In this document: in pieces, positions 1,666 through 14,527 of the stretch | Layout of the letters: each line of letters begins with the position of its first letter | Numbering within the stretch: the stretch's first letter is position 1 | Source: JACPSX01 sp035288405 [NCBI: bacterium] | Lineage (GTDB): Bacteria; JACPSX01 | Assembly: GCA_035288405.1 (NCBI GenBank) | Contig: DATEAK010000336.1 | Location: 1 to 18,575, forward strand | Direction of reading: 5' to 3' | Length of the DNA: 18,575 bases | The notes under the pieces: model-generated | The model's database searches: none | The model's input: the letters and a program-made list of their open reading frames with translations, nothing else | Told to the model about the DNA's origin: nothing | Program-made: the position numbers and the translations under genes

Positions 1666-3648
1666 ATGACAGATAAAACTTTCCCCTATCCTGGGATTCC
1701 CACGACGGCTGATGGATCTAGCGTCATCGTCTGGGTGGAGTCCTACATTGCACAGGGGGCTTGCGCTTACCCTATCACTCCATCGACCAATATGGGTACT
1801 GGATTTCAGGAAGAAGTTTCTAACGGCAAGAAGAACCTGTGGGGAGAAACTTTGGTGTTTCTGGAGCCCGAGTCGGAGCACAGCTCCGCTTCGGCGTGCG
1901 AAGGCTTTGCTTTGGCCGGTGGCAGGGTAACCAACTTTACATCCGGGCAGGGCCTCGTGCTCATGAAAGAGGTGCTCTTCACCATTTCCGGCAAACGTCT
2001 TCCCGTTGTCTTCCACATCGGTGCCAGAGCCCTCACTTCTCATTCCCTGAACATCCACGCGGGCCACGACGACGTGATGGCCGTGGCGGACGCGGGCTGG
2101 GGGATGCTCTTTGCGAAGAATGCCCAGGATGCAGGCGACCTGGCTCTCATCGCGCGGCGGACTGCCGAAGCTTCCTTTACGCCGTTTTTCAACATTCAAG
2201 ATGGATTCCTGACTACCCATACAATCGAGAGTGTTCGACTCCCCGAACCGGAGATGATGAAGGAGTATGTCGGGAATCCCTCCGACAAGCTGCGCTCTCT
2301 GATGGATCCCGAGCGCCCCGTCATGAGCGGTGTGGTCCAGAACCAGGACAGCTATATGAAGGGCAAGATTGCGCAGCGCTATTACTACGATAAGGTGCCG
2401 GAGGCACTTCGGGAAGCGATGGAAGAATTCTACCGTTTGACCGGAAGACGGTACGATGTGGTCCAGAGTTACCGTCTGGAGGATGCGGAGTACGCCATTG
2501 TCGGTATGGGAACCTACATGGAAACAGCCATGGCCACGGCGGACTGGCTGCGCGACCACGAAAGGATAAAAGTCGGAGTGCTCCATGTGACCTCTTTCCG
2601 ACCCTTTCCTGGAGCTCAGATTGTTTCGTCCTTGGCTCATCTCAAGGCTTTCTCGGTCGTGGAGCGTCTGGATATCCCTCTAGCTCAGTCCAACCCTCTG
2701 ACGGCGGAGATCAAGGCGGCCTTTGCCGACGCGGTTCAAGAAGCGCCGGGATATCCGAAAGTCGATCGAGTTCCAACCATCTATTCCGGCTCAGCAGGAC
2801 TGGGGAGCCGGGACGTGCGGCCGGGAGATTTCATTACCGCAGTGAAGAACATGTCCGTCCCCAACGGGAAACGGTTCTTCGTCGTTGGGATCAAGCACCC
2901 GTTGGCTCTTGCTCGCGTGCAGGATCCTGACGTGAGGCCGCCCCAAGCTTTTTCCATGCGCGGCCATTCGGTGGGAGGCTATGGTTCCGTGACCACCAAC
3001 AAAGTCATTGCGACAATTGTGGAGGATCTCTTTAGCCTGCAAGTTCAAGCCTACCCTAAGTACGGCTCCGAGAAGAAAGGGTTGCCCACGACCTATTACC
3101 TGACGGCAGCGCCGGAAAAAGTGCGCACGCACTGTGAGCTTGAGCAGGTGGAGTTTGTACCTCTCAACGACGTGAACGCGTTTCAACAAGGCAATCCCCT
3201 GGCCGGTCTCGGCAGCGGAGGGATGGTTTTTATTCAGACCGACAAGACGAATCCCGAGGAAGTCTGGGCCGATGTTCCCGAGCATGCTCGAAACAACATC
3301 CGGAATAAGAAGATCCGCGTTCTAGCCATGGATACCGTGCAGATTGCCCGCGAGGTGGCCACCAGTCCTGACCTGATTCAACGGATGCAAGGAATTGTCC
3401 TCTTAGGGATTTTCCTGCGTTTCACCCCATTCCGGGAACGTTTGGGGCTGAGCGAGGAGGATCTCTTCAAAGGAGTGGAGAAGTCCTTGCGCAAATATTT
3501 CGGTCGCCGGGGGGACCAGGTCGTGCGGGATAACTTACTGGCGGTCCGCCGGGGTTACGAGGAGGTCTTTGAGATTCCCCGCGACGTAATCGAGGGGCGC
3601 CTCACTCCTGTGGTAGCCGGAGGCACGGATCATTCTCCAAAAGTTTGA
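1666..3648 (+). CDS. 2-oxoacid:ferredoxin oxidoreductase, fused alpha-gamma subunit
   Basis: A 660-residue subunit of a pyruvate:ferredoxin-type oxidoreductase, which oxidatively decarboxylates a 2-oxoacid with CoA and thiamine diphosphate to reduce ferredoxin. The alpha domain comes first: YPITPST at residues 35-41, and a segment from R121 (RALTSHSLNI) to GHDDVM (133-138) that resembles the substrate-binding loop of NifJ-type enzymes. A second alpha domain begins near the AIVGMGTYMETA segment. The gamma domain follows (GIKHPLALARVQDPDV, then MRGHSVGGYGS). The order alpha-then-gamma is that of NifJ, not the gamma-alpha order of KorA proteins. The catalytic thiamine half is in the next gene, 9 nt downstream. 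Substrate is uncertain. 2-Oxoglutarate enzymes supply electrons for ring reduction in Thauera and Azoarcus, but this sequence looks closer to pyruvate enzymes. ATG 1666 has AGGAG 12 nt upstream. Confidence 0.88.
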   Translation: MTDKTFPYPGIPTTADGSSVIVWVESYIAQGACAYPITPSTNMGTGFQEEVSNGKKNLWGETLVFLEPESEHSSASACEGFALAGGRVTNFTSGQGLVLMKEVLFTISGKRLPVVFHIGARALTSHSLNIHAGHDDVMAVADAGWGMLFAKNAQDAGDLALIARRTAEASFTPFFNIQDGFLTTHTIESVRLPEPEMMKEYVGNPSDKLRSLMDPERPVMSGVVQNQDSYMKGKIAQRYYYDKVPEALREAMEEFYRLTGRRYDVVQSYRLEDAEYAIVGMGTYMETAMATADWLRDHERIKVGVLHVTSFRPFPGAQIVSSLAHLKAFSVVERLDIPLAQSNPLTAEIKAAFADAVQEAPGYPKVDRVPTIYSGSAGLGSRDVRPGDFITAVKNMSVPNGKRFFVVGIKHPLALARVQDPDVRPPQAFSMRGHSVGGYGSVTTNKVIATIVEDLFSLQVQAYPKYGSEKKGLPTTYYLTAAPEKVRTHCELEQVEFVPLNDVNAFQQGNPLAGLGSGGMVFIQTDKTNPEEVWADVPEHARNNIRNKKIRVLAMDTVQIAREVATSPDLIQRMQGIVLLGIFLRFTPFRERLGLSEEDLFKGVEKSLRKYFGRRGDQVVRDNLLAVRRGYEEVFEIPRDVIEGRLTPVVAGGTDHSPKV

Positions 3649-3657
3649 GGGGGAAAC

Positions 3658-5235
3658 ATGAACGGAGAAAAGAGCGGCACGATGGAAGAAATCATCAATA
3701 TAGCCGATTTCAACGAGCGGATTGTGGGGAGTTACAATGCGGGAACGGCTGAGGAAGAGTTACCCGCGGACCTGGACGTTGCCCGCAGCCTCATTGCGCC
3801 TGGAACGGGTGCCCTGCGAGACTTTAGCTACATTGCTCCCGAGATGCCCCTGCTTATCGCCGAGAAGTGTGTGGGGTGCATGGAGTGCGTCGTGGCTTGC
3901 CCGGATACGGCGATCCTCGGACGAGTGGTTGCGAAAAACGCTTTGCAGAAAAAGCTCGCAGATCTCTCTGCTGAGGGCGCTTCGGAGATCCTGAAAGCAC
4001 GATTTGCTGAGACCACTAAGTACTTCGGTAATCCAGAAAAAAAAGGAGAAGAGGGAGGATACTTTGGGATCTTTGTAGATCCAACGAAGTGCAAGGGATG
4101 CGGTGAGTGTGTGGAGGTGTGCGGGGACCATCTCGCACTGGAAATGATCAAGAAAACCCCCGAAAACCTCGAGGAATATCGCCGGGCTTTTGCGTTTTTC
4201 CGCGAACTGCCGCCGACCCCGGATCGCTACATTCAAGAAAAGGTCCTGGCGGATATGATGCTTGCTGACCGCTCTTTGCTCTTCCTAGGAGGAGCGGGAT
4301 CCTGCATGGGGTGCGGCGAGGCGACCGCTTTGCGCATGATGCTTGCTGCCACCGGGTTTGTCTACGGGGCAAACAGTGTGGGACTGGTTGCGGCCACGGG
4401 GTGCAACACGGTTTACGGTGCAACCTATCCTTACAATCCGTTCCTGGTTCCCTGGTCTAACTCCCTCTTCGAGAACGTGTCCACGATGGCCATGGGAGTT
4501 CGGGCCCGCTGGGACCAGATGGGCTACAAAGATAAGAAACTGTGGGCCATCGGCGGAGATGGAGCCATGCTGGATATCGGCTTTCAGGCTCTTTCCCGGC
4601 TTCTTATGTCCGGAATGAACATCAACGTTATTGTTCTCGATACGCAGGTGTATTCCAACACGGGCGGGCAGGCGTCGACCAGTTCGTTTATGGGGCAAGA
4701 TGCCAAGATGTCGATGATTGGCACGGCGCAGATGGGTAAATCGGAGCGCCGCAAGGAGCTGGGGAATATCGCCATGATGCATCCCGACGTTTATGTTGCC
4801 CAGACCACGCCGGCTCACATTAACCACTTCTACCGAGCTATCATGACCGCCAACGAATACCCCGGCCCTGCTCTCGTCAACGTCTACTCCACCTGCCAGC
4901 CCGAGCATGGAGTGGCCGACGACCAGTCCTTCGAGCATGCCCGGATGGCCGTGGATTCCCGTGCCTTTCCGATCTTTATCCATGACCCCCGTAAAGGGCC
5001 CCGGCTTCAGGACCGTCTTTCCCTGCAGGGAAATCCGGGCCAGAAGGAAGATTGGTATACGAATCCCAAGACTGGAGAGACTTTCGACTTTGTCGCCTTT
5101 GCCCGTACGGAGAGGCGGTTTGCGAAACAGTTTAGAAAGGACGGCACCCCTTCCGAAGCCCTCTTGAAAGCGCAAGAAGACCGTCTGGCGAACTGGCGCC
5201 TTCTGCAAGAACTGGCGGGCTTCAAGACGAAGTAG
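3658..5235 (+). CDS. 2-oxoacid:ferredoxin oxidoreductase, fused ferredoxin (delta)-beta subunit
   Basis: A 525-residue partner of the preceding alpha-gamma protein. The N-terminal ferredoxin domain carries two [4Fe-4S] motifs, C71-C74-C77-C81 and C145-C148-C151-C155. They are separated by about 63 residues, much longer than in a simple 2[4Fe-4S] ferredoxin. The beta domain holds a proximal cluster set C216, C219, C249 and C413, as in NifJ. The thiamine-diphosphate motif is GGDGAMLD (299-306), followed by DTQVYSNTGGQ near 328-338, a strong NifJ-type signature. Together the two genes cover NifJ domains in the same order, but split between gamma and delta. The reduced clusters would pass electrons to the ferredoxin at 10521 or directly to the reductase (inference). 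ATG 3658 follows a GAGGGGG ribosome site. The C-terminal 80 residues extend past the usual beta core. Confidence 0.9.
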   Translation: MNGEKSGTMEEIINIADFNERIVGSYNAGTAEEELPADLDVARSLIAPGTGALRDFSYIAPEMPLLIAEKCVGCMECVVACPDTAILGRVVAKNALQKKLADLSAEGASEILKARFAETTKYFGNPEKKGEEGGYFGIFVDPTKCKGCGECVEVCGDHLALEMIKKTPENLEEYRRAFAFFRELPPTPDRYIQEKVLADMMLADRSLLFLGGAGSCMGCGEATALRMMLAATGFVYGANSVGLVAATGCNTVYGATYPYNPFLVPWSNSLFENVSTMAMGVRARWDQMGYKDKKLWAIGGDGAMLDIGFQALSRLLMSGMNINVIVLDTQVYSNTGGQASTSSFMGQDAKMSMIGTAQMGKSERRKELGNIAMMHPDVYVAQTTPAHINHFYRAIMTANEYPGPALVNVYSTCQPEHGVADDQSFEHARMAVDSRAFPIFIHDPRKGPRLQDRLSLQGNPGQKEDWYTNPKTGETFDFVAFARTERRFAKQFRKDGTPSEALLKAQEDRLANWRLLQELAGFKTK

Positions 5236-5279: not shown

Positions 5280-6077
5280 ATGAGGTGGAGTGAGATTCCT
5301 TTTCCCAGAGAGCACGGGGGCTGGGCGATTTTCCTGATCCCCCTCGTCATTGGAACTGTGGTGAACGGCCGATTCACCGCTGCCACAGTTCTTTTCGTTT
5401 TTGCTGCTCTGTTCTCCTTTGCAGCCCGGGCTCCGCTGGTTGGTCTAGTTCTGGATACCCCTGGAGGAAAGGCTTCAGGAGTTAATCACAGGAACCTTTT
5501 CATCTGGCTTTTCATGTACGTCGGGATTTCATTTCTTTTCTGTTTCCCCCTGCTTTCTTTCTATAGGCGGCCGCTTCTGATTCTGATTGGTGGTGGCGCG
5601 CTCTCTTTTCTACCGTTTCATTTGTGGGCTGTCAGGCGGCGCCGGGATCGCGCTTTGTCCAACCAACTCTTGGCGGCTTTGGGGCTTACCCTGACGGCTC
5701 CAGGGGCGTATTACGTAGCTGCGGGGGTTCTGGATTCTCGGGCCCTGATTTTGTGGATCCTGAATGCTGCGTTTTTTGGCTCCGAGGTTTGCTACGTGCA
5801 GATGAGAGTGCAATCCTTGCGGCTCCACCGTCCGATCCTGCGGGGAGCAGCTTGCGCAGCGTTTGCCGGGATTCTCACCGGTGTTCTTATCCTTTCCCTG
5901 TTCTCCATTCTCCCGGCGGCCTTTCTTCTCCCCTTTGTCCCTTCTCCTCTAAAAGCCCTTTGGTCGGCCTTGAAATCGTCGAGACGTTTTCAGATTAAAC
6001 GTCTGGGGTGGTTCGGTGTGGCCCATGCGATGGGTTTTGTCGGGCTCTGTCTCCTTTCCTGGTCTCTGGTTTATTGA
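5280..6077 (+). CDS. YwiC-like polytopic membrane protein
   Basis: A 265-residue very hydrophobic protein with roughly seven or eight membrane segments. Its N-terminal FPREHGGWAIFLIP (8-21) is the signature of the YwiC-like family, whose function is not known. A basic cytoplasmic loop (RRRRDR, about residue 118) and a basic stretch near residue 230 (KSSRRFQIKR) fit a positive-inside topology. It follows the 2-oxoacid oxidoreductase by 44 nt, with a short GGAG (5272-5275) just before ATG 5280, so it is probably on the same transcript. Nothing in the sequence links it to electron transfer or aromatic uptake. A transport or prenyl/lipid-modifying role would be a guess. Confidence 0.75.
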   Translation: MRWSEIPFPREHGGWAIFLIPLVIGTVVNGRFTAATVLFVFAALFSFAARAPLVGLVLDTPGGKASGVNHRNLFIWLFMYVGISFLFCFPLLSFYRRPLLILIGGGALSFLPFHLWAVRRRRDRALSNQLLAALGLTLTAPGAYYVAAGVLDSRALILWILNAAFFGSEVCYVQMRVQSLRLHRPILRGAACAAFAGILTGVLILSLFSILPAAFLLPFVPSPLKALWSALKSSRRFQIKRLGWFGVAHAMGFVGLCLLSWSLVY

Positions 6078-6331: not shown

Positions 6332-7462
6332 ATGGCTGCCATCGACAAGTTCGAACACTGGTACCACAACCGCCACGAATACGCAAAAGAATGGAAAAAG
6401 AGGACCGGGGGAAAAGTCATCGGGACGTTCTGTACGTACGTTCCCGATGAAATCCTGACAGCGGCGGGGATGCTCCATTCCCGCATACTGGGGAGCCATG
6501 AGCCTCAGGATGTGACGGAGCCTCACATCTTCGGGATGTTTTGCCCGTTCTGCCGCGACTCTCTGGCCCAGGGGCTGAAAGGAAGATTCAACTACCTGGA
6601 CGGGATCGTGCTGGCCCACTCTTGCATTCATTACCGTCAGACCTTTGATAGCTGGAAAGCCCACATCCCGACCGAATTCACTTACTACCTGCCGATGCCC
6701 AACATGGTTCAGAGCCCCTCAGCGAAGCCTTACTACCTGGGGGAGGTGGCAAAATTCAAGGCCGCCCTTGAGGAGTACGCCGGCAAAAAGATCACGGATG
6801 CGGATTTGGATAGAGGGATTGAGCTTACCAACAAGAATCGTCAGTTGCTTCACCAGATCTATGAGTTTCGCAAAACCGACCCGCCGAAAATGACGGGGAC
6901 GGAAGCTCTCTACGTTGCCACGACTGCCCAGTTTGTCGATTATGAAGAGCACAACAAGTCCTTGGAAGAAGCCATCAAGGAACTGGCCAACCGTCAGGTC
7001 GACCGGGATCCGGGAGTCCGCCTGATGGCGGTGGGAAGCGAAAACGACGATGTAGAGTTCTTCAAGATGGTAGAGTCCGTGGGAGCCACCGTGGTGATTG
7101 ATGAGCAGTGTGCGGGCACCCGCTACTTTTGGAACGAGGCGCGGATCCAACCGGATCGTTTGCAGACAATCAGCGATCGGTATGTAGAGCGGCCTCCTTG
7201 TCCGACCAAAGATTATCCCGAACGAACGAGATTTCCCCACGTGCTTCAATTGGCCAAGGACTATAAAGCTCAGGGTGCTATCATCATGCAGGAGAAATTC
7301 TGCGATCCCCATGAGGGGGATAACCCGATCCTCAAGAAGTATCTGGAAGACAACGGGATCCCGACGCTGGGGCTGGAATTTGACTCCACGAACCCTCTGG
7401 GGCCATTCCGTATCCGGGTTGAGGCTTTCCTGGAAACGCTGAGAACGGACGATCTTTTCTAG
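6332..7462 (+). CDS. bzdN: Benzoyl-CoA reductase, Bzd type, subunit N (BcrC/HgdB family)
   Basis: A 376-residue subunit of the ring-reducing half of class I benzoyl-CoA reductase, which reduces benzoyl-CoA to cyclohexa-1,5-diene-1-carbonyl-CoA at the cost of ATP. The protein has the 2-hydroxyacyl-CoA dehydratase alpha/beta fold. Candidate cluster or active-site cysteines are C34, C71, C74 (FCPFC), C98 (HSC), C260, C290 and C324 (KFCDPHEGDNP). The length fits BzdN and BcrC (about 380). ATG 6332 is set by AAAGGAGGGG just upstream. It is first of four genes in the order N-O-P-Q, which distinguishes the Bzd type from the C-B-A-D naming of Thauera and Rhodopseudomonas. The protein ends in DDLF, the same tail as the flavoprotein ending at 13248. 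A 2-hydroxyacyl-CoA dehydratase subunit is the alternative, but two distinct ATPase subunits downstream argue for the reductase. Confidence 0.92.
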   Translation: MAAIDKFEHWYHNRHEYAKEWKKRTGGKVIGTFCTYVPDEILTAAGMLHSRILGSHEPQDVTEPHIFGMFCPFCRDSLAQGLKGRFNYLDGIVLAHSCIHYRQTFDSWKAHIPTEFTYYLPMPNMVQSPSAKPYYLGEVAKFKAALEEYAGKKITDADLDRGIELTNKNRQLLHQIYEFRKTDPPKMTGTEALYVATTAQFVDYEEHNKSLEEAIKELANRQVDRDPGVRLMAVGSENDDVEFFKMVESVGATVVIDEQCAGTRYFWNEARIQPDRLQTISDRYVERPPCPTKDYPERTRFPHVLQLAKDYKAQGAIIMQEKFCDPHEGDNPILKKYLEDNGIPTLGLEFDSTNPLGPFRIRVEAFLETLRTDDLF

Positions 7463-7507
7463 GGTCGGAATGGAAACCGCAACGAATTTTTGGATGGGGA
7501 GAACATC

Positions 7508-8818
7508 ATGGCAACGGTAACCAAATATCCCACGGAACCTTTGAAGTGTTGGAATAAGGCGAAGGAACTGCGCCTGAAGTATTACAAGGATTACGCGGAG
7601 TGTAAACAGCGTGGAGGCATTCGCTGGAGCGGAGGGGCCTGGGCAATGGACGCGATTCCTGCCGGGCTGGGGGATGACGTATACACCCTGACCAGCGAGC
7701 CCTACGCTGCTTCCGTGGCTTTTGATCCGAAGCTCAATGCGGAATGTCAGAGCGCAGCGGATGCCAAGGGTTGGTCACGGGACCTCTGTTCCTACATGAG
7801 AACCTACTGGGGATCCATGTATGTCAACAAATACGCCTTTGGCGGTGAGTTTCCCAAGCCTGACTTTGTATATCAGACCCAGATTTGCTGCAGCCACCAC
7901 AAGTGGTACCAGCATGTCTCCGAGTATAAGAAAGTTCCCTATTTCACCATCGATGTCAGCGTGGGAGCATATAAGGACCTGGATGAAGGCAAAATCCAGT
8001 ACGTGGTCAACCAGATGCAGGAATCCATCCCCTGGATGGAGAAGGTGACGGGACGCAAGTTTGATGACGAGAAGTTTATCGCTGCCGTCAACAGTGAGTG
8101 TCGCACGACCTCTCTTTGGGCCGAGGTTTGCACGCTCAACAAGGCAATTCCGGCTCCTCTGGAAGAGAAGACGATGTACGCTCTCTATGTTCTGGCCACC
8201 CTTTCCAAACATTCCAAAGAGTTCGGGGACTTCTATGCAGAGCTCAGGGATGAGGTGAAGGACCGCATTGCCCGGGGCATCGCTGCGGTGTCCAACGAGC
8301 GCTGCCGCCTGATCACGGACACCCAGCCCCCGTGGAGCTATCTCTCCATGTACCGCTATATGGAGAAATACGGGGCCGTTTCCGTGGGTTCGCTGTATAC
8401 GTTCGCACTGGAAGGGGTCTTCGCGGATCAGCCGGATGGCTCCTGGGGCCCCAGGCCTACACCAGAACAGCTCGGAATCAAGATTCGCACCCGGGAAGAA
8501 GCCTTGCGGATCTACGCCGACTGGAACCTGTGCAAGCCCGAGTGGCAACACTTTTACGACCCCCAGATCAAGACCGACATAATGCTCAGGATGGTCAAGG
8601 AGTTTAAGCTGAATGGGGTGATCCTGCACCTGAACCGAGGTTGCGAGGGCTTGAGCAAAGGAATTATGGAAAACCGGCTTGGGCTCGTCAAAGCGGGGGT
8701 GCCTGTAATGACCTATGAAGGGAACATGGGCGACGAGAAGGAAATGGATTACCCGCGGACTCTAAGCCGCATCGACTCCTTTATGGAAAGTCTGGGTTTG
8801 GGCAAGCTTGAGAATTAA
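7508..8818 (+). CDS. bzdO: Benzoyl-CoA reductase, Bzd type, subunit O (BcrB family)
   Basis: A 436-residue large subunit partnering BzdN in the substrate-reducing module, the normal size for BcrB/BzdO (about 435-450). Cysteines likely to hold the [4Fe-4S] clusters include C94, C127-C128 ([12 protein letters not shown]) and the cysteine in the [11 protein letters not shown] segment near the C-terminus. The GGNMGD-like segment [16 protein letters not shown] near the end is typical of this family. The frame opens at TTG 7490, but ATG 7508 is preferred: GGGGAG at 7496-7501 gives a 6-nt spacing and the protein then starts [10 protein letters not shown]. It lies 45 nt after bzdN and 12 nt before bzdP. 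Together N and O would hold two electron-donating clusters at the benzoyl-CoA site (family knowledge). Confidence 0.92.
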
Positions 8819-8830
8819 GGGAGGAATGTC

Positions 8831-9607
8831 ATGATTACAGCGGGAATCGATGTGGGAGCCAAAACAATCAAGGTGGTGCTTCTTGACGGTGACAAGATCT
8901 TGGCTAAAGCCCAGGTGCTGGCCGGCTTTGAGACGGAGCAGTCTGTTGAGGAGGCTTATAAAGAAGCGCTCGGCAAGGCCGGAATTGAGCGTAGCGCCGT
9001 GGTCAAGGTAGGGGCGACCGGAGCGGGCCGCAAAGCCGTTGCATTTGCCCAGACTGTGGTCACGGAGGTGAGTGCGGATGCACGGGGAGCTGTCTTCCTC
9101 CATCCGTCTGCCCGCACGGTCATCGATGTGGGCGCCGAAGAGGGGCGCGGAATCAAAACCAATGCCGCCGGCAAGGTTGTTGACTTTGCGGTGAACGAGA
9201 AGTGTGCCGCCGGGGCGGGAGCCTTCACGGAGTCCATGGCGCGGGCACTGGAAGTGACCCTGGCGCAGTTCGGGGAGATTTCCCTGAAATCCGATAAGAC
9301 GATTCCCATGAACGCCCAATGCACCGTCTTCGCCGAATCCGAAGTGGTGTCCCTGATCCACTCAAACATCTCCAAGGAGGACATCGCTCGGGCAGTGCAT
9401 GACGCGATCGCCAGCCGAATTTCCGCCATGGTGCGCAGGGTCGGCTTGGAGCAGGATGTGGTTTTGATGGGCGGAGTTGCCTACAACATAGGGTTTTTGG
9501 AGTCCATCAAGCGGACGATGGGGATCGAGAATGTTGTGGTCCTGGAGGATCCTGAATACGTGGGAGCTCTGGGGGCTGCTGTCGTTGCCGGCGCGGATGG
9601 AAACTAG
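8831..9607 (+). CDS. bzdP: Benzoyl-CoA reductase, Bzd type, ATPase subunit P (BcrD-like)
   Basis: A 258-residue ASKHA-fold ATPase, one of the two subunits that couple ATP hydrolysis to electron transfer from ferredoxin into BzdNO. The phosphate-1 loop is IDVGAKTIK (6-14). GATGAG (61-66) is the adenosine-side loop. C125 (NEKCAAGAGAF) and C164 (NAQCTVFAESE) are positioned like the two cysteines that hold the dimer-bridging [4Fe-4S] cluster in HgdC-type activators. The second phosphate loop reads DVGAEEGRG (99-107) instead of the DMGGQDCK seen in the next subunit, so the two ATPase halves are not equivalent. The 258-residue size, close to subunit Q, fits the Bzd type rather than the large BcrA of the Bcr type. 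GGGAGG precedes ATG 8831. Confidence 0.9.
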   Translation: MITAGIDVGAKTIKVVLLDGDKILAKAQVLAGFETEQSVEEAYKEALGKAGIERSAVVKVGATGAGRKAVAFAQTVVTEVSADARGAVFLHPSARTVIDVGAEEGRGIKTNAAGKVVDFAVNEKCAAGAGAFTESMARALEVTLAQFGEISLKSDKTIPMNAQCTVFAESEVVSLIHSNISKEDIARAVHDAIASRISAMVRRVGLEQDVVLMGGVAYNIGFLESIKRTMGIENVVVLEDPEYVGALGAAVVAGADGN

Positions 9608-9624
9608 AGGGGAGGAGGTTAACC

Positions 9625-10503
9625 GTGGCTGAATTCTGGAGATGGAAGGAATACAACTGGAAAGATCCCGATAAGGATTGGAAATCCGCGAAGTTGATCA
9701 CGTCGGGAATTGACGTCGGTTCCGTAAGCTCCCAGGCGGTCATCGTGGCCGACGGGGAACTCTACGCCTATGCCAGCATGCGCACCGGGTCCAATAGTCC
9801 GGACAGCGCCCGCAACGCGCTGGAATGGGCCTTGCGGGACACGGGGATGAAGCAGGAGAACATTCAGTACGTCGTCGGCACCGGGTACGGGCGTGTAAAC
9901 GTTCCCTTCGCCAACAAAGCGATTACGGAAATCGCCTGTCACGCCCGGGGCGCGAATTTCATGGCCGGCAACAGCGTGCGCACGATCCTGGACATGGGAG
10001 GACAGGATTGCAAAGCAATCCATTGCGACGAGAAAGGGAAAGTGACCAACTTCCTCATGAACGATAAATGCGCTGCCGGCACAGGGCGCGGGATGGAAGT
10101 CATTGCGGACTTGCTGGGGGTCCCGGTCGAGCAGGTCGGGGAGCTTTCATTTAACGTTCCCGAGGAACCCGAACCGGTCAGCAGCACCTGCGTGGTGTTT
10201 GCCAAGTCCGAGGCCATGGGTCTTCTCAAGGACGGTTGGACCAAGAGCAAGGTCTTGGCCGCGTACTGTCTGGCCATGGCCAAGCGGGTCTCCGAACTTC
10301 TGGAGCGCATCGGTGTGGAGAAGGAGTTCTTCATCACCGGAGGGATCGCCAAAAACGCGGGGGTCGTCAAGCGTCTGGAGCAGGTCATCGGTGTAAGTGC
10401 CATCCAGAGCAAGTACGACAGCCAGCTTGCGGGGGCACTGGGGGCGGCTCTGTTTGGCCAGGCCTTGCTGCAAAAAGAGAAAGCGGCCGGCAAAGTGGCC
10501 TGA
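9625..10503 (+). CDS. bzdQ: Benzoyl-CoA reductase, Bzd type, ATPase subunit Q
   Basis: A 292-residue ASKHA ATPase that pairs with BzdP. A short tryptophan-rich N-terminal extension (about residues 1-25, FWRWKEYNWKDPDKDWK) precedes the ATPase core. The core shows GIDVGSVSSQ (28-37), GTGYGR (85-90), DMGGQDCKAI (123-132), the cluster cysteines C149 (NDKCAAGTGR) and C189 (STCVVFAKSE), and GGIAKN (239-244). The start is GTG 9625, with an exceptionally strong GGAGGAGG at 9611-9618. The extension and size match BzdQ as I know it. Gene order (after P, before a ferredoxin) also supports the name. Assignment of P versus Q rests on order and extension rather than alignment. Confidence 0.9.
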   Translation: MAEFWRWKEYNWKDPDKDWKSAKLITSGIDVGSVSSQAVIVADGELYAYASMRTGSNSPDSARNALEWALRDTGMKQENIQYVVGTGYGRVNVPFANKAITEIACHARGANFMAGNSVRTILDMGGQDCKAIHCDEKGKVTNFLMNDKCAAGTGRGMEVIADLLGVPVEQVGELSFNVPEEPEPVSSTCVVFAKSEAMGLLKDGWTKSKVLAAYCLAMAKRVSELLERIGVEKEFFITGGIAKNAGVVKRLEQVIGVSAIQSKYDSQLAGALGAALFGQALLQKEKAAGKVA

Positions 10504-10520: not shown

Positions 10521-10802
10521 ATGCTCGCAAATTACGGTTACAAGGACGGCTCCGGGGAGTACTTCATAACGATCGACACAGACAAGTGCACTAGCTGCCC
10601 TCATCACGGCTGCATTGATGGATGCCCCGAGCATATCTACGAGATGATCACGGACGATTACGACGACAACGTGTCGGCGGTCCGTCGGGACGTCCGCAAT
10701 ACTTTGAAGTACCTCTGTGCTGCCTGCAAGCCGACTACGGGGCGTGGGGTACTCCCTTGCATGGCCGCGTGCACTCCGGGCGCCATTACTCATTCCTGGT
10801 AG
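10521..10802 (+). CDS. 8-Cys ferredoxin, likely electron donor to benzoyl-CoA reductase
   Basis: A 93-residue ferredoxin starting at ATG 10521, 17 nt after bzdQ. A longer in-frame extension back to 10236 lies inside bzdQ and is not used. The eight cysteines form two sets: C23-x2-C26-x4-C31-x3-C35-P, and C66-x2-C69-x10-C80-x3-C84-T-P. Both depart from the standard C-x2-C-x2-C-x3-C-P. The long second loop recalls the Allochromatium/Thauera ferredoxin group, whose members have very low potentials and donate to benzoyl-CoA reductase in Thauera. The extra two residues in the first motif are less usual. An acidic stretch (DDYDDN, 46-51) between the motifs may dock partners. It probably carries electrons from the 2-oxoacid oxidoreductase or the flavoprotein downstream to BzdPQ. 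Its place matches bzdM in Azoarcus, but I leave the symbol open. Confidence 0.87.
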   Translation: MLANYGYKDGSGEYFITIDTDKCTSCPHHGCIDGCPEHIYEMITDDYDDNVSAVRRDVRNTLKYLCAACKPTTGRGVLPCMAACTPGAITHSW

Positions 10803-10812
10803 GAGGCTCGCT

Positions 10813-13248
10813 GTGGAAACGGTCACCTTGAGCCTGGATCAAGAACAGGTAACGGTTCCGGATGGCCTCTCTTTGTTGCAGTTGGCGTGGAAGCAAGGGA
10901 AATACATCCCCAGCCTCTGCGCACATCCGGACCTCTCGCCCGAGGGCTCATGCCGGCTCTGTCTGGTAGAGGTGGAGGGACAGCCGGGTTTGGTGCAGGC
11001 CTGCGATGTGAAGGTGCAGGCCGGCATGGTGGTAAGAACGGAATCGCCCGCCATCGCGGCGGCCCGTCAGGATAATCTGGCCAAGATTCTTGCGAACCAC
11101 CCTCACGTGTGCTTGACCTGTCCGCAGAGGGAAGGATGCACACGCACGACCTGTTCTTACGGGATTCCCGTCGAGGAGCGCTGCTGCTCCATCTTCAACG
11201 ACTGCGAGATCCGACGCGCTTCGGACTATGTGGGAATTAAGAACGACACTCCCCGCTATATCCATCGCAAGCTTCCCATCGTTCATGATGAGCCGTTTTA
11301 CAACCTCGACTTTAACCTGTGCATTTCCTGTGGCCGCTGCGTCCGGGTGTGCCGTGATGTGAGAGGCATCGGGGCCCTGGGAGTTCGGGAACTGGACGGC
11401 CATGTCTACATGGGGCCCATTGCGGATACGCTGGAGGAATCGGGGTGCAAGTTCTGCGGATCTTGTGTGGAGGTTTGCCCCAGCGGCTCTTTGTTGGACA
11501 AAGTGGCCGAGGTTCCCGGAAAAGTGGAGACCTCCCTGGTTCCCTGCCGGGAGGCCTGCCCGGCCGGAATTGACGTCCCGCGTTACGTGCGTCTGATCGC
11601 CGATGGAAAGTTTCCGGAAGCGGTAGCCGTGATTCGGGAAAAAGTCCCTTTCCCCGAGGTTCTGGGATACATCTGCTTTCACCCCTGTGAGCCTGTGTGC
11701 CGGCGGGGGAAAATCGATGAGCCGATCTCCATCTGTTCCCTGAAGCGATTTGCATCGTCTCGGGATACGGGCCTGTGGAAGGAAAAAGCGAATTTCGCTC
11801 CTGCCACGGGGAAGAAGGTGGGTGTCATCGGATCGGGGCCTGCGGGCCTGACGACAGCCTACTACTTAGCCCGTAAAGGGCACTCAGTCACCGTGTTTGA
11901 AGCGTACTCTGAGCCAGGCGGCATGCTGCGTACGGGAATTCCTGAATATCGCCTTCCCCGTGAAGTCCTTGACAGGGAAATTCAAGAAATCGTGGATGCG
12001 GGGGTGAAGATTCAGTACAACTCTCGGGTGGATGACCTGGATGCCCTGTTTGCAGAAGGCTTTGAGGCTCTGTTTCTCGCCATCGGAGCTCATCAAGGGA
12101 GCAAACTCGGATTGAAAGGACAAGATTCACCCAGAGTGATGGATGGGGTGAGTTTCCTGCGCCGGGTGAACCTTGGCGAAGATGTCTCCGTAGGCCAGAA
12201 AGTGGCAGTCATCGGGGGCGGAAACGCGGCTATTGATGCAGCCCGTACCGCCCGGCGCTTAGGAAGCCAGGAAGTAACCCTGATTTACCGGCGCACCCGC
12301 GCCGAGATGCCGGCCTTCCCCCATGAAGTGGATGAGGCGATCCACGAGGGGATCACCCTGGAGTTTCTAACGGCCCCGGTGTCGATCCAGCCCGGTAACG
12401 GGAATCTCCAGGTGGAGTTCGTGAGAATGGAGCTTGGCGATCCGGATGAGAGCGGCCGGCGCAGGCCCGTACCGCTGCCTGGTAGCGAGTATACCCGGGA
12501 GTTTGATACGGTCATTGCCGCGATTGGTCAACGCCCCGAGGTTCCCGATCATTTTCATCTTCCGTTGGGGAAGGGAGACATTCTGGAGGTTCACAGGGAC
12601 ACCCTGAAGACCAATCGAGAAAAGGTGTTTGCTGGGGGAGATGCGGTGAGCGGGCCGGCTTCCGTTATCGAAGCCATCTCCATGGGAAGGACTGCCGCCT
12701 CGGTCATCGATTGTTCTCTGGGCGGCGACGGGATTATTGATGAATCTCTCGTGGATTTTGAAGACGCAAGTCCTTTCCTGGGGAGAGAAGAGGACTTTTT
12801 GGCACGCCTGCGATCCGCAATGCCCACTTTACCCCTGGCGGAACGCTTGATCGGCTTCCCTGTGGTCGAATTGGGGCTGGACGAGAAGGCTGCCATCGCG
12901 GAAGCCAACCGCTGCCTGCGCTGTGACCTTCGCCTGGATTTGGCCCCGCTTCCGCATCCACCTGCCCATTGGCTGGAGTTCACCACGGAACAGGTGGCGC
13001 AGGTTCCGGAAGCGGAAGGGGTGTTCGAGTTGTTGGACGAGGAAAAGAACGTCCTGATGATTTGCGGAACGCCAAATCTTCGTCACAGCTTGACCGAAAA
13101 ACTCCAAGAAAATTCCCAGGCCCGCTACTTTACTTTCGAAGAGGAACCCATGTACACTCAAAGGGAGAGTGAGCTTTTGCAGCAGTACCTCCAGCAGCAT
13201 GGGCAGATGCCCGGGGGCGGGGCGTCGGACCTCGACGATCTTTTCTAG
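10813..13248 (+). CDS. Iron-sulfur flavoprotein: NuoG-like N-terminus, GltD-like NAD(P)H core, GIY-YIG-like tail
   Basis: An 811-residue composite electron-transfer protein. Residues 1-80 are a [2Fe-2S] domain (C36, C47, C50, C64). H96-C100-C103-C109 is the NuoG-type His-Cys3 motif. Two [4Fe-4S] motifs follow, C170-C173-C176-C180 and C212-C215-C218-C222-P. Residues 240-310 hold the cysteine-rich GltD entry (C245, C249, C288, C292, C296, C308). The FAD Rossmann motif is GVIGSGPAG (337-345) and the NAD(P) motif is VIGGGNAAIDAA (466-477). C701 and C704 close the core. The tail (about 730-811) looks like a GIY-YIG fold with altered catalytic tyrosines and ends DDLF. It probably shuttles electrons between NAD(P)H and ferredoxin, like the flavoprotein subunit of the Azoarcus 2-oxoglutarate:NADP oxidoreductase or BzdV. 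The start is GTG 10813 with AGGAGG at 10800-10805. The longer frame from 10717 overlaps the ferredoxin and is rejected. Confidence 0.87.
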   Translation: METVTLSLDQEQVTVPDGLSLLQLAWKQGKYIPSLCAHPDLSPEGSCRLCLVEVEGQPGLVQACDVKVQAGMVVRTESPAIAAARQDNLAKILANHPHVCLTCPQREGCTRTTCSYGIPVEERCCSIFNDCEIRRASDYVGIKNDTPRYIHRKLPIVHDEPFYNLDFNLCISCGRCVRVCRDVRGIGALGVRELDGHVYMGPIADTLEESGCKFCGSCVEVCPSGSLLDKVAEVPGKVETSLVPCREACPAGIDVPRYVRLIADGKFPEAVAVIREKVPFPEVLGYICFHPCEPVCRRGKIDEPISICSLKRFASSRDTGLWKEKANFAPATGKKVGVIGSGPAGLTTAYYLARKGHSVTVFEAYSEPGGMLRTGIPEYRLPREVLDREIQEIVDAGVKIQYNSRVDDLDALFAEGFEALFLAIGAHQGSKLGLKGQDSPRVMDGVSFLRRVNLGEDVSVGQKVAVIGGGNAAIDAARTARRLGSQEVTLIYRRTRAEMPAFPHEVDEAIHEGITLEFLTAPVSIQPGNGNLQVEFVRMELGDPDESGRRRPVPLPGSEYTREFDTVIAAIGQRPEVPDHFHLPLGKGDILEVHRDTLKTNREKVFAGGDAVSGPASVIEAISMGRTAASVIDCSLGGDGIIDESLVDFEDASPFLGREEDFLARLRSAMPTLPLAERLIGFPVVELGLDEKAAIAEANRCLRCDLRLDLAPLPHPPAHWLEFTTEQVAQVPEAEGVFELLDEEKNVLMICGTPNLRHSLTEKLQENSQARYFTFEEEPMYTQRESELLQQYLQQHGQMPGGGASDLDDLF

Positions 13249-13276: not shown

Positions 13277-13744
13277 ATGACAGCCAAGCTGGCGCAGGAA
13301 CAAATTCGGATTCGTCTGATCCAGAGAGGGGACATGGATGCCATTGTCTTCATAGATGCCCAGTCCTTTGGCAAGAAAAGGCCCGAGTATTATGAGCAAA
13401 AGGTTGATCTCGCCCTGGATGACCGGCGACACTTGGTTACCTCTTTGGTAGCTGAGGTCGGGGGGAAAGTCGTCGGATTCATTATGGGAGAGATTTACCG
13501 CGGCGAGTTCGGAATCCCGGACACGGTGGCAACGATCGATACCATCGGAGTTGACTCCAAGTACCAGAGAAACGGCATCGGCCAGTTCCTGATGGAAGAG
13601 TTTGTGACGATCGCACGGAAGGCCGGCGTCGAGGTGATCAATACCCGGGTGGCTTGGAATGATTGGGATCTGTTGAGATTTTTTGACAGCAGCTCATTCC
13701 AACTCCAACAAAGCAAGGCGATCCATCTGGAGCGCAGGCTCTAA
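13277..13744 (+). CDS. GNAT family N-acetyltransferase
   Basis: A 155-residue protein of the GNAT fold, which transfers an acetyl group from acetyl-CoA to an amine. The central strand and pyrophosphate-binding loop are visible as TIDTIGVDSKYQRNGIGQFL (about 90-109), where Q-R-N-G-I-G is the Q/RxxGxG/A motif. RIRLIQRGDMDAI near residue 10-24 is the usual N-terminal strand-helix. ATG 13277 follows AGGAGG (13265-13270), and the gene sits 28 nt after the flavoprotein, clearly in the same operon. The Rhodopseudomonas benzoate cluster also contains an acetyltransferase gene (badL), so the association recurs. The target could be a protein lysine, for example on an acyl-CoA ligase, or a small amine. 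The sequence does not decide. Confidence 0.85.
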   Translation: MTAKLAQEQIRIRLIQRGDMDAIVFIDAQSFGKKRPEYYEQKVDLALDDRRHLVTSLVAEVGGKVVGFIMGEIYRGEFGIPDTVATIDTIGVDSKYQRNGIGQFLMEEFVTIARKAGVEVINTRVAWNDWDLLRFFDSSSFQLQQSKAIHLERRL

Positions 13745-13756
13745 CGAGGGAGTTCC

Positions 13757-13999
13757 ATGGCGGAACAGGAAAATAGAGGGAAAACTGCGGTCCTCAAGAT
13801 GGAGGGCTGGGAGCGACGCACTACAGCCTGCGAGCCCCGCCTCAGTGAGTTGGTGGAACTTTACGAATCGCTGGGGTTTGAGGTGCGCGTGGAGCCTTTT
13901 GAGGCCGAGCCAGGCTATGAGTGTCTCGATTGTTACACCATGGAGCCCGGCAGGTACAAGATCATATTCACAAGGCCTCATGACGCTGGCGCCGCGTAG
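13757..13999 (+). CDS. Small CxxC protein, unknown function
   Basis: An 80-residue soluble protein I do not recognise. C25, and the pair C56-x2-C59 in YECLDCYTMEPGRYK (54-68), are its only cysteines. A short motif of three thiols could bind a metal, with the site perhaps completed in a dimer. There is an amphipathic helix (LSELVELYESLG, 29-40), then a strand (FEVRVEPFE) and a final strand (YKIIFTRP), giving a compact alpha/beta protein. GAGGGAG precedes ATG 13757 by 4 nt. Its stop codon (13997-13999) touches the upstream frame of the hemerythrin gene, so the two are probably translated together. Redox sensing or metal handling with the hemerythrin is only a suggestion. Confidence 0.7.
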   Translation: MAEQENRGKTAVLKMEGWERRTTACEPRLSELVELYESLGFEVRVEPFEAEPGYECLDCYTMEPGRYKIIFTRPHDAGAA

Positions 14000-14026
14000 A
14001 TGAAGTTGGAAGGAGGAAAGAGGGCG

Positions 14027-14527
14027 ATGGTGGATGTTTCCAGTGGGAAGGTGGGACTGTGCCCCGAGCACATCGGGTTGCTGGACACGCTGGAAGGGTT
14101 GCGCGCGAAGCTGGTTCGGCTCGGCTGCATGGGCGATATTCCAAGGGAAAACGAGTGGCAGAATTTATGCCGATGGCTAAGGGGTTTTTCCCGGGAACTG
14201 GAAGACCATATGTCCTGCGAAGAGACCAACTTTTTTCCCGTGGTGGACTGGGGCTTGGGGGGAGGCGAAGAGAGCCCCACTCGCTTCGTTCTGGCTGAAC
14301 ACCAGCAGATCCGGCGGATCTTGGAGGACGTCAGGAAGGTAGCCACGCCGTCCCTCGGGGCCTCGGAGGACCAGTTCTGGCCTTATTTCGGCCGCTTGAG
14401 CGAACTCATGAGCATTCTGACCTCTACTTTGACAAGTCATATCCGCAGTGAGGACCGCATTTTTTTCCCGCTCGGTCAACAGATCCTCCACCAAAGGATG
14501 GTGGATAAGCAAAATCCAGCTCAATAA
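14027..14527 (+). CDS. Hemerythrin-like (HHE) domain protein
   Basis: A 166-residue four-helix-bundle protein with a full set of di-iron ligands: H15 (PEHIGLLD), H61-x3-E65 (DHMSCEE), H92 (AEHQQI) and H138-x3-E142 (SHIRSED), followed by FFP in both repeats. Such proteins bind a diiron centre and react with O2, NO or peroxide. Four cysteines are also present (C12, C34, C48, C64). The frame opens at ATG 14000, directly after the previous stop. The ATG at 14027 is preferred because AGGAGG (14011-14016) sits 10 nt upstream. Inside an operon for an extremely oxygen-sensitive reductase, an oxygen-scavenging, sensing or iron-delivery role is reasonable (inference). Confidence 0.84.
   Translation: MVDVSSGKVGLCPEHIGLLDTLEGLRAKLVRLGCMGDIPRENEWQNLCRWLRGFSRELEDHMSCEETNFFPVVDWGLGGGEESPTRFVLAEHQQIRRILEDVRKVATPSLGASEDQFWPYFGRLSELMSILTSTLTSHIRSEDRIFFPLGQQILHQRMVDKQNPAQ

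Follow-up and report, generated by a model that had tools for sequence, protein, structure and literature searches.

Why should a domain resembling the GIY-YIG nuclease fold stand at the end of an electron-transfer flavoprotein? This question is raised by the window, the whole 18,575-nucleotide stretch of DNA that we analysed (contig DATEAK010000336.1 of the bacterium JACPSX01 sp035288405), which is a bzd (benzoyl-CoA reductase) gene cluster. The protein in question is a BzdV-like oxidoreductase of 811 amino acids, encoded at 10813..13248 and identified by Pfam and NCBIfam matches; this gene, its parts, and the ferredoxin-like, bzd and Kor-like genes described below lie on the forward strand. 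A preliminary description of the locus had seen an apparently inactivated GIY-YIG-like domain in the C-terminal part of this protein. We found that this tail belongs to the Pfam family DUF7508, and our favoured reading, held with moderate confidence, is that it derives from the GIY-YIG superfamily, no longer has a nuclease site and serves BzdV as a docking or specificity module for a dedicated partner.

Fold and kinship of the tail

The likely start of the gene is the GTG at 10813, giving 811 amino acids, and the mechanically delimited open reading frame begins at 10717. According to Pfam, the protein consists of a 2Fe-2S domain (Fer2_4), a NuoG-type Fe-S part, Fer4 and Fer4_20/GltD with Pyr_redox_2, followed by the tail; the fusion to a GltD-like oxidoreductase that had been described is therefore present. 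The tail is a domain of 97 amino acids at 12955..13245, delimited by Pfam, an AlphaFold2 (AF2) model, fold searches and related loci. It scored 37.8 bits against DUF7508 (PF24348), over the curated cut-off of 26, and all 22 members of an alignment of the window tail and 21 relatives (A1) matched this family at E up to 0.1. Pfam lists the function of DUF7508 as unknown, and no paper mentioning it was found in a literature search.

When genome contigs were scanned with the tail alone, 23 related loci were found. Their taxa include Tectomicrobia, Chloroflexota, Dehalococcoidia, Deltaproteobacteria, Bipolaricaulota, Delongbacteria, Phycisphaerae, Actinomycetota, Thermoleophilia, Electryonea and Zixibacteriota, among others. 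The tail is under purifying selection (the ratio of non-synonymous to synonymous substitution rates, dN/dS, against the nearest relative L001 was 0.058 in the tail, close to the 0.065 of the body) and is co-inherited with the body, the similarities of the two parts covarying over 34 proteins (r 0.68; 0 of 2000 permutations). A sequencing or frame artefact was rejected on the grounds of the open frame, the dN/dS of 0.06 and the 23 related loci.

The window tail was modelled by AF2 from 22 sequences, with a predicted local distance difference test score (pLDDT) of 76.8 and a predicted template modelling score (pTM) of 0.55. DSSP assigned strands to tail residues 22-27, 33-39 and 58-63 and helices to residues 42-51 and 69-82, which is the GIY-YIG order. 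A second AF2 model was made of the tail L021, 47% identical to the window tail (pLDDT 78.8). The order strand-strand-helix-strand-helix was present in both models, and another topology, set beforehand as the refutation of the GIY-YIG idea, was not seen. In Foldseek searches with the window tail, the top ten PDB chains were all GIY-YIG domains (2LWF and UvrC entries, E 1.5e-3 to 7.6e-2); with the L021 tail the top ten chains were again all GIY-YIG, with E from 1.0e-3. Structure prediction and fold search on two tails thus bear out the fold that the preliminary description had proposed.

Superposition with the tool VIA gave Z 8.2 between the window tail and the N-terminal domain of the Arabidopsis glutaredoxin AtGRXS16 (2LWF; 1.7 Å over 64 residues), and Z 7.0 to 5.5 to UvrC, the best row having 1.5 Å over 57 residues. 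The L021 tail gave Z 7.0 to AtGRXS16, 7.3 to UvrC and 5.4 to RimK. With the window tail, RimK scores Z 5.5, level with the weakest of the UvrC rows; we regarded the matches to RimK and to Y-family polymerases (Z up to 5.5) as arrangements that agree by chance. In nearly every row to a GIY-YIG structure, with both models, the alignment ends near residue 66-70, so that it does not reach the last helix, modelled in both tails. The tool itself warns that Z under 8 may reflect a common arrangement, and for this reason the sequence evidence matters.

Searched against the PDB, a hidden Markov model built from the tails found 2LWF with E 0.0038; the only match above it, 8fje, came through short repeats, none of them significant singly. 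Local hhalign comparison of the tails with four UvrC domains gave a probability of 92.7 and a score of 41.6, against at most 19.3 in 200 column shuffles and 18.9 for the reversed alignment, while the global comparison gave a lower probability, 40.4. The UvrC profile was made from four of five non-tail loci with weak DUF7508 matches, L061 (an exonuclease fusion) not being picked up, and the UvrC identity of its four members was confirmed with Pfam. Five weak DUF7508 matches in the sampled genomes were checked, and all carry the Pfam GIY-YIG domain, four of them being UvrC and one an exonuclease fusion. Against this, the tail itself gave no hit to the GIY-YIG model of Pfam at E up to 1. In the profile comparisons the tail is akin to the GIY-YIG superfamily, above controls, and its predicted structure is of the GIY-YIG type. 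Three short stand-alone relatives of the tail were also noticed (L064, L065 and L067); one of them, L065, retains GVY, LYIG and LRTR, scores 51 bits to DUF7508 and is possibly closer to an active ancestor.

The AtGRXS16 domain is the best or near-best match of the tail in both fold and sequence, and it too sits on a redox protein, so plants already provide a known case of this combination. It differs in being N-terminal, in being carried by a glutaredoxin, and, in the 2LWF alignment, in having Glu opposite a Gln of the tail. The N-terminal GIY-YIG domain of UvrC (1YD6, 1YCZ) shares the core fold (57-58 residues at 1.5-2.2 Å) and the profile match; it differs in its DNA repair role, in the presence of the Tyr, Tyr, Arg and Glu residues, and in charge, the four relatives being neutral to basic.

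State of the nuclease site

The motifs lie where the preliminary description had placed them, with GVF at residues 736-738, MIC at 749-751, NLR at 755-757 (13075-13083) and RESELLQ at 784-790 (13162-13182). By profile alignment, GVF (13018..13026) corresponds to the GIY motif in strand 1 and MIC (13057..13065) to the YIG motif in strand 2. Residues were tallied over 57 distinct tail cores, a 68-row tally with duplicates being set aside. Gly22, the glycine of GVF, is present in all 57. In the gap-free profile alignment the two signature tyrosine positions are occupied by Phe24 and Met35, the replacements that had been pointed out earlier. Position 24 is Phe in 25 tails and Tyr in 19; the second position, 35, is degenerate, with Tyr in three of the 57, and both tyrosines occur together in two (L045 and L095). 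A change of the second tyrosine alone is reported to have abolished the activity of the GIY-YIG domain in Thermotoga UvrC (PMC9426483).

The arginine and the glutamate had been described as kept, and here our results differ. In two UvrC proteins of known structure, Arg is found only at the second of two Arg-like positions, the first being Lys or Ser. The gap-free profile alignment puts the NLR arginine, Arg43, at the first of these positions, and at the second, where Arg is conserved in UvrC GIY-YIG domains, the window tail has Ser45 (13087..13089). Among the 57 tails this position is Ala in 15, Ser in 14, Gly in 10, Asp in 6, Glu in 5, Leu in 4, Thr in 1, Tyr in 1 and Arg in 1 (L104), so the arginine cannot be called kept. 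The case against the glutamate is less firm. By the 2LWF alignment and the helix motif, the residue that corresponds best to the catalytic Glu of the nucleases is Gln76 (13180..13182), a position with Gln in 49, Ala in 4 and Ser in 4 of the tails; a joint MAFFT alignment puts it on Leu75, likewise never Glu in the 57. It falls on one of the two nearly invariant glutamates of RESE only if the helix slips by at least three residues. Because the structural alignments stop near residue 66-70, the placement of the Glu is less sure, and such a slip onto Glu73 is possible.

The most conserved block of the tail is MYTQRESE (13150..13173), with Glu71 in 57 and Glu73 in 56 of the 57 tails, and the domain closes with an acidic DDLF end (13234..13245; Leu96 in 56, Phe97 in 55). 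With the second tyrosine and the arginine so rarely present, the GIY-YIG domain is apparently inactivated, as far as the aligned residues tell, and in this the preliminary description agrees with our tallies.

Occurrence of the tail

The window contains bzdN, bzdO, bzdP and bzdQ of a class I benzoyl-CoA reductase at 6332..10503, assigned by NCBIfam; BzdN, BzdO and BzdQ exceeded their cut-offs, and bzdP was assigned by a general activase family and its position. Directly upstream of the BzdV-like gene lies a small ferredoxin-like gene (10521..10803), recognised by its cysteine motifs and context and called BzdM by position; its Pfam match to Fer4_10, 20.9 bits, is under the cut-off of 25.5. A GltD-like flavoprotein thus adjoins bzdNOPQ and this small sub-cut-off ferredoxin, as expected of a BzdV-type donor, and in this position and its GltD-type body it resembles the BzdV of the Azoarcus type. 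A pair of 2-oxoacid:ferredoxin oxidoreductase type at 1666..5235 (Pfam POR domains; NCBIfam equivalogs below cut-off) was named KorA/KorB from gene context.

The neighbourhood counts are based on 40 regions fetched around tails. In 34 of them bzdQ was in the same region as the tail, and in 30 of these 34 a ferredoxin match lay between bzdQ and the tail gene. Among the six regions without bzdQ, three (L097, L119 and L129) end close to the tail gene and one (L114) has an adjoining run of N. Two phylum samples were also surveyed, scoring a limited number of candidates per genome, so that misses are possible; the tail counts leave out the weak match L051. Around G014 (132 genomes), 20 genomes had tail and bzdQ, 4 the tail only, 4 bzdQ only and 104 neither; around G010 (297 genomes), the corresponding numbers were 10, 1, 31 and 255. 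Three of the four bzdQ-only genomes around G014 were fetched, and in each the BzdV gene is truncated, either at a contig end or by a stretch of N; in the fourth, bzdQ is 637 bases from the contig end. Beside bzdQ in the 17 fetched of the 31 bzdQ-only genomes around G010, no BzdV-like gene was found, except for a 26% match to the Fe-S part in L137. The tail thus accompanies BzdV, and BzdV is optional. Two other phylum samples contained few tail matches (4 of 301 and 3 of 296 genomes); in three of these genomes the match was weak and stand-alone, and they do not enter the tail counts. Across many bacterial groups, then, the BzdV-like protein of bzd clusters carries the tail again and again.

A search of the 297 genomes around G010 with the BzdV body gave at least 11 proteins that cover it from no later than residue 46 to at least residue 708, and blastp brought two more (L183 and L184), making 13 full-body proteins among the matches listed. 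Eight of these 13 have the tail, and each of the genomes concerned has a bzdQ match above the cut-off; the other five (L180, L181, L182, L183 and L184) end just after the GltD part, and in their fetched flanks no bzd gene was found. Because of these five, we rejected the idea that 2Fe-2S/GltD proteins have such a tail in general. L180, L181, L182 and L184 share a terminal KFWG.Y or RFWG.Y instead of the tail, and L181 adjoins a NuoF-like gene. There are also five hosts of 384-435 amino acids (L017, L020, L021, L045 and L066) that consist of the 2Fe-2S/Fe-S part and the tail, without the GltD part; no GltD-like gene was found in the four regions of such short hosts that were examined, one of which covers only 7.6 kb.

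Several other genes of the window were noted. A YwiC-like gene (5280-6077) lies between the Kor-like pair and bzdN. The gene at 13277-13744 encodes a GNAT acetyltransferase, and several bzd clusters have relatives of it close to BzdV or bzdQ. It is followed by an 80-amino-acid gene (13757-13999) with relatives recurring directly after BzdV in bzd clusters, and also directly after bzdQ-ferredoxin in many clusters without BzdV; Pfam gave no family for it at E up to 0.001, and a DUF2249 label was dropped for this reason. A hemerythrin-domain gene (14000-14527) belongs to the same gene run.

Role of the tail

The tail is kept with the Fe-S part where the flavin part is missing, and it is present on the bzd-linked copies and absent from the unlinked body relatives examined; a docking or specificity element is therefore the best reading. 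Such a tail would hold the NAD(P)H-linked Fe-S flavoprotein against a dedicated partner in the bzd electron chain, for which the candidates are the reductase and an assembly of KorAB, ferredoxin and BzdV. The presumed route of the electrons starts at NAD(P)H or KorAB and leads, by way of the flavin and Fe-S centres, to BzdM and then to BzdNOPQ, and docking would steer low-potential electrons to the reductase and away from other acceptors. BzdV is described in two papers as a putative NADPH:ferredoxin oxidoreductase that forms a ferredoxin-regenerating system with KorAB (PMC5658619, PMC5736913). In Rhodopseudomonas palustris the Nfn-type AadN is needed for benzoate use and was proposed as the ferredoxin-reducing donor of benzoyl-CoA reductase, functionally insulated from nitrogenase (PMC9973337), so this pathway does require insulation. 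AadN differs from the BzdV-like protein in its fused Nfn architecture, and no such tail is mentioned in the portion of that paper available. A more specific proposal, which we make only tentatively, is that a nuclease domain which lost its cutting site was recruited as a dedicated element for docking the electron donor BzdV onto the benzoyl-CoA reductase chain and for insulating it. Our literature search found no paper combining GIY-YIG with benzoyl-CoA reductase, and nothing relevant on inactive GIY-YIG domains of other proteins among the matches listed.

Several observations weigh against a docking module descended from a nuclease. No Foldseek match was below E 0.001 with either model. The tailed genes L099 and L128 lie away from bzdQ, which is found elsewhere in their genomes, and 31 of the 41 bzdQ genomes around G010 have no tail, so the reductase does not need it. 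The genomes of two tail-less relatives, G188 and G276, hold bzdQ elsewhere; G188 has a tailed copy as well. A counter-example is L185 in genome G019, a fragment of the BzdV body that lacks the tail and shares 56-57% identity with its counterpart in the window; this genome also carries a tailed copy. Finally, a constrained and covarying tail would also suit a purely structural role.

This last point leads to the most serious alternative, in which the tail is a structural or oligomerisation element of BzdV itself, a stabiliser or, as the main rival, a homodimer contact, with no partner in the pathway. Its constant C-terminal position and its covariation with the body are in keeping with this, the docking partner is one that we only infer, and a homodimer with hidden catalytic residues is described for another GIY-YIG protein, the fungal SLX1 (PMC9071465). 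Against it, the tail persists in hosts without the GltD half and is absent from five full-body relatives outside bzd clusters, and we regard this explanation as rather unlikely.

It could also be argued that the tail still binds or cuts nucleic acid. The AtGRXS16 domain, its best or near-best solved match, has endonuclease activity according to a review (PMC5890173), and likewise departs from the GIY-YIG motif in the aligned stretch; moreover, L104 has Arg at position 45 and L045 and L095 have both tyrosines. In most tails, however, the Tyr, Tyr and Arg positions are degenerate and Gln stands at the likely Glu position. The tails are also acidic, with a mean net charge of -11.1 (range -19 to -3 in the 57 tails), compared with 0, 7, 4 and 4 for the four UvrC domains, and they are located in catabolic clusters. 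An active nuclease or DNA binding was rejected because of the degenerate site and the acidic tail, and we consider this explanation highly improbable.

It is equally improbable that a small strand-strand-helix-strand unit, unrelated to GIY-YIG, has come to match the fold by chance. The Foldseek E values are moderate (1.0e-3 at best), VIA Z is at most 8.2, RimK scores as high as the weakest UvrC rows, and the superpositions leave out the C-terminal helix. Against this stand the independent sequence evidence with its controls, the replicate model of L021, the fact that the weak DUF7508 matches checked are GIY-YIG proteins, and intermediates such as L065. The least credible explanation, a cysteine redox switch between tail and body such as is described for the domains of AtGRXS16 in the review (PMC5890173), has this precedent and the sole cysteine of the window tail, Cys37, in its favour, and was rejected because none of the 57 tails' positions has a conserved Cys (Cys37 occurs in two tails, and the commonest, at position 49, in 10).

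The supply and insulation of the very low-potential electrons needed by benzoyl-CoA reductase are only partly understood. The tail, conserved where this donor is linked to bzd, offers a direct handle on the pathway and its specificity. Beyond this, a Pfam domain whose function is unknown now has a predicted fold, and the GIY-YIG fold gains a likely use other than as a nuclease, one that, if true, would lie in central anaerobic metabolism.

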